From: an uncultured bacterium
Lineage (GTDB): Bacteria; Vulcanimicrobiota; Vulcanimicrobiia; Vulcanimicrobiales; Vulcanimicrobiaceae
DNA length: 53,794 nt
Reading direction: 5' to 3'
Assembly (NCBI GenBank): GCA_903829325.1
Contig: CAIKPM010000002.1
Coordinates: forward strand, 1 to 53,794
Made by a program: the position numbers and the translations under genes. Shown here one piece after another: positions 42,802-45,381 of this stretch. Position 1 is the first letter of the stretch; each line of letters starts with the position of its first letter. A model generated the notes under the pieces. The model worked only from the letters and a program-made list of their open reading frames with translations. It was not told the origin of the DNA and made no database searches.

Positions 42802-43671
42802 TTAGGAATTCCTCTCGGCAACGCGGAGCCTCGCACTGCGTGCGCGCGGGTTGTGCTGAATTTCGCTGTCTTGGGGGAGCAATGGTTTGCGAGTGATTGC
42901 AGTCAGATGTGGGTTGTCACGAAAATGGTGTTTCACAAGACGATCTTCCAGTGAATGAAAGCTGATCGCGGCAATACGACCACCGGGGGCCAACATGGTG
43001 GTTGCTGCTTCAAGACCTTGGCTGATAGCGCCGAGTTCATCGTTGACCGCGATGCGTAACGCTTGAAAGGTGCGGGTAGCGGGATGGGTGCGCTCACGCT
43101 TGCCTGGGCGATGGAGCACGCCCGCGACGCAACGCGCCAACTCGACCGTGGTCCGAGGCAGGCGTCCTTGTTCGCGCGCGCGGAGCAGGGCGCGGGCAAT
43201 GCGTCGTGCTGCGCGCTCTTCACCAAAAAAGAAAAGGATATCGGCCAATTCGGTTTCTGAAGATTCAGCCAGCAGCTCATGAGCGGTGCGTCCGCTTGTT
43301 TGGTCCATGCGCATATCGAGAGGCGCGTCGCTGTTAAACGAAAAGCCGCGCTCGCCTCGATCGAGCTGCATCGAGGAAACGCCGAAATCGAATAACACGC
43401 CATCGACCCGCTCGATCGCTCGTGCGCGTAGCTCGTCGGCGATATCGCGGAAATTCGCTTGCACGAACACGAGAGCCGGGTCGACCAAGGGCTCAACCGT
43501 GGGATCTACATCGAATGCAATAACTCGGCCGCCGCGCAGACGGGCCAGTAAGGCCCGCGTGTGGCCACCAGCGCCAAACGTTGCATCGACGTACGTTCCT
43601 TGCTCACGAATCGCAAGGCCGTCTAAGGCTTCATTTAAGAGGACGGGTGTGTGCGGTGCTGAGTCACTCAA
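42802..43671 (-). CDS. rsmH: 16S rRNA m4C1402 methyltransferase
   Basis: A 289-residue RsmH (MraW). HTPVLLNEALDGL at the N-terminus, the SAM-binding YVDATFGAGGHTRALL, GVLFDFGVSSMQLDRGERGFSF, and C-terminal ISFHSLEDRLVKHHF are family signatures. It methylates N4 of C1402 in 16S rRNA. Overlaps mraZ by four bases. Confidence 0.97.
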   Translation of the reverse strand: MSDSAPHTPVLLNEALDGLAIREQGTYVDATFGAGGHTRALLARLRGGRVIAFDVDPTVEPLVDPALVFVQANFRDIADELRARAIERVDGVLFDFGVSSMQLDRGERGFSFNSDAPLDMRMDQTSGRTAHELLAESSETELADILFFFGEERAARRIARALLRAREQGRLPRTTVELARCVAGVLHRPGKRERTHPATRTFQALRIAVNDELGAISQGLEAATTMLAPGGRIAAISFHSLEDRLVKHHFRDNPHLTAITRKPLLPQDSEIQHNPRARSARLRVAERNS

Positions 43672-44111
43672 AAGAGGCCGAGCTCCGTTGCAAAACCCTC
43701 AACCTCACTTGGGTCGGGGCTGAGGTCATGCAATTCTTCCTTGGCCCAGATTTCGACGCGGGTTAAGGAGCCAATCGAGACGACATCCCGTTCGATTTTG
43801 GCATAAGCACGTAGGGTGGGGGGCAAGACGAGGCGACCTTGCCCATCGCATGCGACTTCTTCGGTATGGGCAAACAGGTGGCGGACAAAGCGGCGATAGC
43901 GTGCGTCTTTGACCGGAGCGGCTTCGATGCGACGGCACACATCGGCCCAGGTGACGAGCGGATACATCGCCAGGCAGTGGTCAGGTTGAGCGATGGTGAG
44001 CACAAACGAACCACCCAGCCGTTCACGAAAACGTGCCGGGACAATAAGACGACCTTTATCATCGAGACCGTGCTCTGCTGAGCCCGTGAATCGAGGGAAA
44101 TCAGTCGACAG
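43668..44111 (-). CDS. mraZ: MraZ transcriptional regulator, probable CTG start
   Basis: A 147-residue MraZ with two SpoVT/AbrB-type half domains: LDDKGRLIVPARFRE near residue 17 and CDGQGRLVLPPTLRAYA in the second half. MraZ binds GTGG-type direct repeats and represses its own dcw operon. The frame is open to 44372 but those 87 codons do not look like MraZ. Between the promoter and FTGSAEHGLDDKGR there is no ATG, GTG or TTG. CTG 44111 is preceded by AGGTGGAGGG with GGAGG nine bases away, and gives the standard 140-150 residue length, so I take CTG as the start. Confidence 0.85.
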   Translation of the reverse strand: MSTDFPRFTGSAEHGLDDKGRLIVPARFRERLGGSFVLTIAQPDHCLAMYPLVTWADVCRRIEAAPVKDARYRRFVRHLFAHTEEVACDGQGRLVLPPTLRAYAKIERDVVSIGSLTRVEIWAKEELHDLSPDPSEVEGFATELGLF

Positions 44112-44146
44112 TTGTTTAGCCCTCCACCTAGTACCAGTAATACACG

Positions 44147-44170
44147 TTATCCACAGGTGGGTGTGGATTA
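44147..44170. promoter_or_regulatory. paired DnaA boxes (or leader hairpin) upstream of mraZ
   Basis: TTATCCACA (44147-44155, plus) is a perfect DnaA box. TGTGGATTA (44162-44170) is the inverse of TAATCCACA, one mismatch from consensus. They are mirror images around GGTGGG. The pair lies in the mraZ 5' leader. The seven-base complementarity ATCCACA/TGTGGAT could instead act as an RNA hairpin. Confidence 0.5.
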
Positions 44171-44173
44171 TTC

Positions 44174-44209
44174 CACCACACGCCCCCACTTCACACCACT
44201 GCACCCCAC
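44174..44209 (-). promoter_or_regulatory. MraZ operator: four GTGGKG repeats, 10-bp period
   Basis: On the minus strand GTGGGG, GTGGTG, GTGGGG and GTGGTG (plus positions 44204-44209, 44194-44199, 44184-44189, 44174-44179) are direct repeats exactly ten bases apart, so all face the same side of the helix. This is the known style of MraZ binding sites. The first repeat overlaps the -10 element and the rest cover the initial transcribed region, as expected for repression. Confidence 0.85.
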
Positions 44210-44236
44210 TATAGCGAAAAAACTCCAGGGGGGCAA
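44208..44236 (-). promoter_or_regulatory. mraZ (dcw operon) promoter
   Basis: TTGCCC (44236-44231), a 17-base spacer and TATAGT (44213-44208) on the minus strand form a good vegetative promoter. Transcription should begin near 44201, giving a leader of about 90 bases to the CTG start. A six-base inverted repeat CTCCAG/CTGGAG (44223-44247) surrounds the -35. Confidence 0.75.
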
Positions 44237-44262: not shown

Positions 44263-45381
44263 GTGATCAAACACGGTGGTGGCCTGAAGATTCTGGACCG
44301 GTATGTCCTGCGCGAGCTCGCGGCACCATTCGCCTTTGCGTTTGGGGCGTTTCTGCTGTTCTGGTTTATCAATATATTTTTTTTGGCGGCTGATTATCTG
44401 ATCAACGCGCATGCGCCATTTTTTTTGGTCTTACGGTTTTTGGTGTTTCGGATACCTCAGGCAACACCGTATGCGTTCCCCTTCGCGGCACTCTTTGCGA
44501 GCTTGCTCGGCTTCGGACGCTTGGCGGCCGATCACGAACTGACCGCGATGCGCACCTCAGGTATTGCCTTTGCGCGCATTGCGGCCGCACCGTTAGCGGC
44601 TGGTTTTGGCTTATTTTTGGTGTCGTATCTCGTGAACGATAGCCTGACTCCGCGCGCGGTAGAACTCTCGACACGTACGTTTTATCAAATTGTCTACCAC
44701 ACCGCGACCTTGCCAATTGAGCCGCAGTTCTTTCGGAAGGATCAAGAGACCGGACGGGTTTTCTATGTGGGTGACGTGACGGGTGATCACCGGACGATGC
44801 TCAACGTGATGATTTTTGAACCTGCCCGCATGAGCGCGTTTCGCCAAGTGACCACCGCCCAAGAAGCTCGGATCAACCAGACCCAGCTCGTCTTAATGAA
44901 CGCCTCGGTGATCCGCTTTAAGCCGAACGGCTTGGTCGATGGAGAAACGACCGGCAAAACCATCACGGTAAATCTGCCCTTAGGAGAAACGGCTGAGCAG
45001 TTTCTGACCACGAGCAATAACGATGCCTATGCGCTCAATTCGAAGCAACTGGCCGGTCAAGTGCACGATATGGAAGCCACGGGTCAGGGTGGCACGGCAC
45101 TTGGTTTGTTAAAGGTGACGCTGGCTCAGAAGCTTTCGTATCCCTTTGCGGCATTTATTGCGACGTTGCTAGCATTGCCGCTAGCGGTAAGTTTGGGAAA
45201 GCAGAGCCGCACGTTGGGGGTCGGGCTGTCGATTCTGCTGTTGTTCATCTATTATTTACTGTCGGCGGGTTTTGCGGCCATCGGCCGTAACGGTGCTCTG
45301 AATCCTTATTTGGCTGCTTGGTTGCCCAATCTCATCATGGGGACGGTCGGGGCGGTATTATTTTTGCGAGAGGAACGCTAA
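44263..45381 (+). CDS. LptF/LptG family LPS export permease
   Basis: A 372-residue YjgP/YjgQ family permease. About six membrane helices: one near residue 20, two around 55-110, and three after residue 280, with a periplasmic beta-jellyroll-like domain (about 135-270) between. LDRYVLRELAAPFAFAFG is the typical N-terminus. It would extract LPS with LptB and its partner for transfer to LptD. GTG 44263 is the assumed start; GGAG lies 16 bases upstream, so the start is uncertain. Stop overlaps the lptD start (TAATG). Divergent from mraZ. Confidence 0.88.
   Translation: MIKHGGGLKILDRYVLRELAAPFAFAFGAFLLFWFINIFFLAADYLINAHAPFFLVLRFLVFRIPQATPYAFPFAALFASLLGFGRLAADHELTAMRTSGIAFARIAAAPLAAGFGLFLVSYLVNDSLTPRAVELSTRTFYQIVYHTATLPIEPQFFRKDQETGRVFYVGDVTGDHRTMLNVMIFEPARMSAFRQVTTAQEARINQTQLVLMNASVIRFKPNGLVDGETTGKTITVNLPLGETAEQFLTTSNNDAYALNSKQLAGQVHDMEATGQGGTALGLLKVTLAQKLSYPFAAFIATLLALPLAVSLGKQSRTLGVGLSILLLFIYYLLSAGFAAIGRNGALNPYLAAWLPNLIMGTVGAVLFLREER

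Follow-up and report, generated by a model that had tools for sequence, protein, structure and literature searches.

Why should two facing DnaA boxes lie in the leader of mraZ, at the head of a division and cell wall operon in an uncultured bacterium of the Vulcanimicrobiaceae, and could they couple transcription of these genes to the level of DnaA-ATP? In a preliminary description of the window (the whole stretch of 53,794 nucleotides analyzed here), the pair was noted as a box and its inverted near-copy flanking GGTGGG next to the MraZ operator; both the letters and the coordinates were confirmed exactly (Table 1), as was the position of the operator, the minus-strand MraZ boxes of which start at 44210, 44200, 44190, and 44180. 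Only one of the two DnaA boxes is perfect, and it is the sole perfect TTATCCACA and the sole TTWTNCACA in the window, where 2.5 occurrences of the latter pattern would be expected, so that there is no overall enrichment of DnaA boxes. The pair is located between the promoter (44236-44208) and the mraZ start (44111), that is, within the promoter and leader region where a regulatory DnaA site would be sought. We estimate at roughly one half the probability that this is a lineage-specific inverted DnaA-box pair, carried on a gained stretch of about 52 bp separating the MraZ operator from the mraZ Shine-Dalgarno box, that hinders mraZ-mraW transcription.

Table 1. Features of the mraZ region, in positions of the window
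Feature	Position	Strand	Remark
Perfect DnaA-box match TTATCCACA	44147-44155	+	Consensus match; TGTGGATAA on the mraZ sense strand
Spacer GGTGGG, 6 bp	44156-44161		Between the facing boxes; CCCACC on the mraZ strand
Second DnaA-like box TAATCCACA, inverted	44162-44170	-	One mismatch; plus strand reads TGTGGATTA
mraZ promoter TTGCCC-17-TATAGT	44208-44236	-	Layout common to relatives
MraZ operator	44176-44210	-	AGTGG at 44210, 44200, and 44190 and TGTGG at 44180; 10-bp period
Extra leader bases containing the pair (about 52)	44129-44180	-	Absent from 59/59 class relatives; limits from the layout of boxes and Shine-Dalgarno
GGTGGAGGG	44109-44128	-	Includes a Shine-Dalgarno that partly coincides with a MraZ-like box, and the probable mraZ start codon, CTG
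mraZ	43668-44111	-	PF02381, E 1.8e-29
mraW/rsmH, next operon gene	42802-43671	-	PF01795
lptF/lptG-type permease gene, divergent	44263-45381	+	PF03739

MraZ was found in 68 of the 78 genomes searched, including that of the window, and the mraZ leaders of 59 class relatives were compared, 42 of these from the same family (f1), three from the same order (f2), and 14 from the same class (f3). Leader lengths were counted without eight distant-phylum loci that have no TATAGT[GT] promoter and without L064, which is an additional MraZ copy of G002 with the same layout at 41 nt, and two weak MraZ matches (G009:C4 and G042:C70) stayed outside the comparison. The promoter and the 10-bp MraZ boxes are largely kept across the 59 class relatives, and the first MraZ box shares bases with the -10 element (TATAGTGG, window 44206-44213) in almost all class genomes, which would put MraZ in direct competition with RNA polymerase. 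As read from the sequence, the conserved feature of the mraZ leader is a predicted promoter whose -10 element runs into putative MraZ boxes of the form AGTGG-N5. The mraZ gene most likely starts at the CTG at 44111, and the ribosome site GGAGGG precedes this probable start; nine of the 59 class relatives (L002, L004, L006, L011, L022, L029, L035, L059, and L060) likewise appear to use a CTG at the aligned position, following a GGAGG-like ribosome site.

Against this shared layout, the leader in the window's genome is long: 102 nt separate the -10 element from the aligned mraZ start, compared with 42-51 nt in every one of the 59 class relatives, and the extra bases, about 52 if their limits are set from the layout of the boxes and the Shine-Dalgarno, follow the MraZ operator and precede the Shine-Dalgarno box. 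The DnaA boxes are equally confined to this genome. None of the 59 class relatives has a DnaA box with up to one mismatch in its mraZ leader (L030 carries such a word further upstream), a MraZ operator followed by TGTGGATAA was found in one of 103 genomes of the order, namely the window's own, which is the sample's sole genome of its genus, and the inverted-pair pattern occupies this place in one of 99 family genomes, the other match of that family search, in G036, having surroundings without a link to a division gene. Thus, conservation of the boxes at mraZ, the lack of which had been named in advance as a refutation, did not materialize, although this does not disprove a lineage-specific site. 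A mobile repeat was considered as the source of the extra bases and rejected: a 74-bp query matched only itself and one further, chance-level sequence in the genome (E 0.79). Separately, DnaA-like boxes lie just before the mraZ -35 element, about 76 bp before mraZ, in L065 (TGTGGATAA) and L066 (TGTGGACAA), two genomes of one genus in the distant family f9, of which three genomes were sampled, two of them with MraZ.

Given that TGTGG is a MraZ-box variant in relatives and that the fourth box of the window's own operator is TGTGG, the TGTGG words of the palindrome might belong to the operator as additional MraZ boxes, one in inverted orientation. We consider this unlikely. In this class, MraZ boxes repeat directly every 10 bp, a register that is kept by the boxes from 44210 to 44176 but missed by the palindrome, in which one TGTGG follows box 4 at 25 bp and the other reads from the opposite strand; moreover, the ATAA/ATTA flanks suit DnaA boxes, unlike MraZ boxes.

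The preliminary description had also allowed for a leader hairpin, and an RNA element of the form AUCCACA-CCCACC-UGUGGAU could control mraZ translation or elongation, with the loop CCCACC potentially pairing with GGUGG in the Shine-Dalgarno region. The 7-bp stem and 6-nt loop indeed constitute the local minimum-energy fold (-8.5 kcal/mol), but folding of four stretches did not bear the hairpin out: the 97-nt leader forms a slightly less stable fold than its shuffles do (z +1.1), CCACAC being paired to an upstream GUGUGG instead in the best structure, and the local hairpin scores z -0.2 against shuffles. Furthermore, no U run follows the stem, and no Rfam family was detected above the cut-off, two matches far below it being taken as chance. 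Control by this hairpin is therefore, in our judgment, very unlikely.

A DnaA-like palindrome could also have formed by chance, through neutral insertion or expansion of a GTGG-rich leader beside a repeated operator. Several observations favor this possibility, to which we assign a modest probability, well short of an even chance. Apart from the missing conservation among relatives, the composition of the leader, rich in GTGG, favors TGTGG and CCACA and counts against a DnaA site, and MraZ-box-like words of both kinds are plentiful in it; palindromes of equal strength number 117 in the window compared with 86 per shuffle and are contained in 8-11% of shuffled leader segments; and the site was picked post hoc from the whole window. 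Chance nonetheless accounts poorly for the DnaA identity of both arms, which is rare under every non-circular null, although all of these tests were devised once the site had been noticed. The pattern TCCACA-N0-12-TGTGGA occurs once in the window, compared with 0.01 times in shuffles; when the 52-bp segment was shuffled 20,000 times with its dinucleotides preserved, no DnaA pair with one mismatch or fewer in total arose, and pairs with up to two mismatches arose four times; and a third-order Markov null trained on the leaders of the 59 relatives produced a box in 4 of 200,000 sequences and the strict pair in 0 of 200,000. A null trained on the window's own leader alone gave the strict pair in 229 of 200,000 sequences, which is circular because that model had seen the pair. 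It is the DnaA identity of the arms that is unusual; the palindrome as such is unremarkable.

Whether the arms resemble the boxes that DnaA uses in this lineage can be judged from the regions upstream of dnaA, a gene that was found in 28 of 31 genomes, giving 28 upstream loci for comparison. TGTGGATAA and CTGTGGATA are each present in 19 of these loci, TGTGGATAA being the joint commonest 9-mer, and CACCTGTGGATAA, the right arm of the window's pair, recurs in six (CACCTGTGGATAAC in two). An inverted pair, TCCACA-N2-TGTGGA, is present in 11 of the 28 loci. The DnaA proteins of all 28 loci, the window's genome included, carry the DHTT motif, which we take to be the usual box-recognition motif. 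The sharing of the box with the dnaA-upstream regions means that the mraZ-leader site matches the lineage's own box, beyond the textbook consensus. In the window's genome, the dnaA-upstream region contains TTATCCACA, TTTTCCACA, and TTACCCACA together with a looser pair, CTCTCCACA-AC-TGTGGGTAA; these boxes (L095/L103, G000:C16) lie between dnaA and what is presumably an rplU-like gene.

Across the same genome, perfect TTATCCACA was counted 11 times, compared with five for the reversed control. By our reading, eight of the 11 are in clear coding frames, two are in control regions (dnaA and mraZ), and the remaining one is within the 5' portion of a long frame with an uncertain start. Perfect boxes inside genes are accordingly common here, as the chance explanation would have it, and a perfect box alone is no proof of function. 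In L099, two of the perfect boxes (positions 1924 and 2197; G000:C45:50923 and 51196) are separated by 273 bp; they fall within a glycosyltransferase-like gene or ahead of it, with an rsmA/ksgA-like gene nearby.

In other bacteria, boxes that lie away from oriC are able to titrate DnaA, and the orientation of the mraZ-leader pair resembles that of the dnaA-upstream pair, so that the site might act on replication timing, through titration or the state of DnaA, and be in the mraZ leader by accident. We regard this as highly improbable: known titration and reactivation sites carry clusters of boxes, whereas there are only two here, and a location between promoter and gene makes a role in transcription the simpler explanation.

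The reading of these words as DnaA boxes gains weight from a second division locus. A phylum-wide pattern search of 149 genomes returned inverted DnaA pairs in 10, the window's own included, and in four of these, all from the sister family f3, the pair lies between two genes that we recognized by recall from their sequences, and thus take to be, ftsQ and ftsA. We then counted boxes before ftsA at 44 of 48 same-family loci, four of four f2 loci, 14 of 14 f3 loci, the window's own locus, and three distant loci, leaving aside G001, G010, G043, G046, and other distant loci. Within 200 bp before ftsA, 13 of the 14 f3 genomes have a box with up to one mismatch (0.26 expected), perfect in seven, although the f3 counts are inflated by relatedness and the perfect boxes stem from four genera; the pair TCCACA-N3-TGTGGA is present in six of the 14. 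When only the ftsQ-ftsA gap is considered, boxes are found in 10 of the 14 f3 genomes, perfect in seven and forming inverted pairs in six. They are located 33-52 bp before ftsA in L151-L156, and in L158, L160, and L161 a perfect box falls between -73 and -80. In f1, where the upstream gene end was set for 38 of 44 loci, some of these ends being rough, boxes occur in the ftsQ-ftsA gap at eight of the 38 loci with a known gap, two of them perfect, and several (TTATCCTCA) resemble ftsQ codons.

The window's genome presents the reverse of f3: it has a box at mraZ and none before ftsA, and in none of the 14 f3 genomes was a DnaA box found in the 200 bp before mraZ. The proposal that the mraZ-leader words are DnaA boxes is thus supported by their match to the lineage's dnaA-upstream boxes and by DnaA pairs recurring at ftsA, but not by conservation at mraZ itself, and the 6-bp spacer, compared with 2 or 3 bp in the other pairs of relatives, speaks against it. 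The word CAA(T/G)AT(A/C)T, often as CACAATATAT, precedes ftsA at 35 of 44 same-family loci (e.g., L182, L190, and L206), whereas the window's genome and all 14 f3 genomes lack it there; it is possibly the site of an undescribed regulator or a promoter element. TAGTAGG precedes ftsA at 16 of the 44 same-family loci.

Taken at the level of sequence, these comparisons suggest that DnaA likely binds the pair in the mraZ leader. The bound protein would cover positions from about +30 to about +55, inside the region transcribed from the mraZ promoter, where it would hinder transcription of mraZ, mraW, and the genes behind them, so that DnaA probably represses mraZ. Such binding would add a replication-linked brake to MraZ autoregulation, and the operon would answer to both DnaA and MraZ. 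The divergent lptF/lptG-type gene, which starts 93 bp from the pair, is a possible second target. More tentatively, DnaA may directly tie division-gene transcription to replication across this class of Eremiobacterota, with the tie moving between promoters, being located at ftsA in f3 and certain other groups and at mraZ, on top of MraZ autoregulation, in this lineage; we find this broader scenario conceivable but doubtful.

Among the known arrangements closest to the window's pair is that upstream of dnaA in the class, a probable oriC, where TCCACA-N2-TGTGGA has the same inverted arrangement and the same box sequence, including CACCTGTGGATAA; the mraZ-leader pair differs in its spacer (6 compared with 2 bp), in having no third box, and in its location away from dnaA. 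The AGTGG-N5 direct repeats fit known MraZ operators: the available excerpt of one source describes MraZ boxes upstream of mraZ in Escherichia coli (Eraso et al. 2014, cited in PMC8475190) and direct repeats of AAAGTG[T/G] in Mollicutes (PMC8475190), and the mirrored pair breaks the 10-bp direct-repeat rule.

With respect to DnaA, the consulted part of a further source reports that it binds at ftsZ in Caulobacter and at ftsL in Bacillus subtilis as a transcription factor (PMC8203912). These systems resemble the window in that a division gene's control region has DnaA boxes or binds DnaA, and differ from it in that the gene here is mraZ and the predicted boxes are downstream of a MraZ operator, within the part of the leader that is transcribed. 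The same part of that source states that the DnaA boxes in ftsQA of E. coli, upstream of ftsZ, play no role in ftsZ transcription (PMC8203912); these boxes are likewise within the dcw cluster, at a location comparable to that of the ftsQ-ftsA boxes of the sister family, and it is on their account that we hold our confidence at one half. A literature search, mostly at listing level, returned no account of DnaA boxes in a mraZ leader. The two locations of predicted DnaA pairs, behind the MraZ operator here and before ftsA in the sister family, offer a natural comparison for testing the link between DnaA and division.
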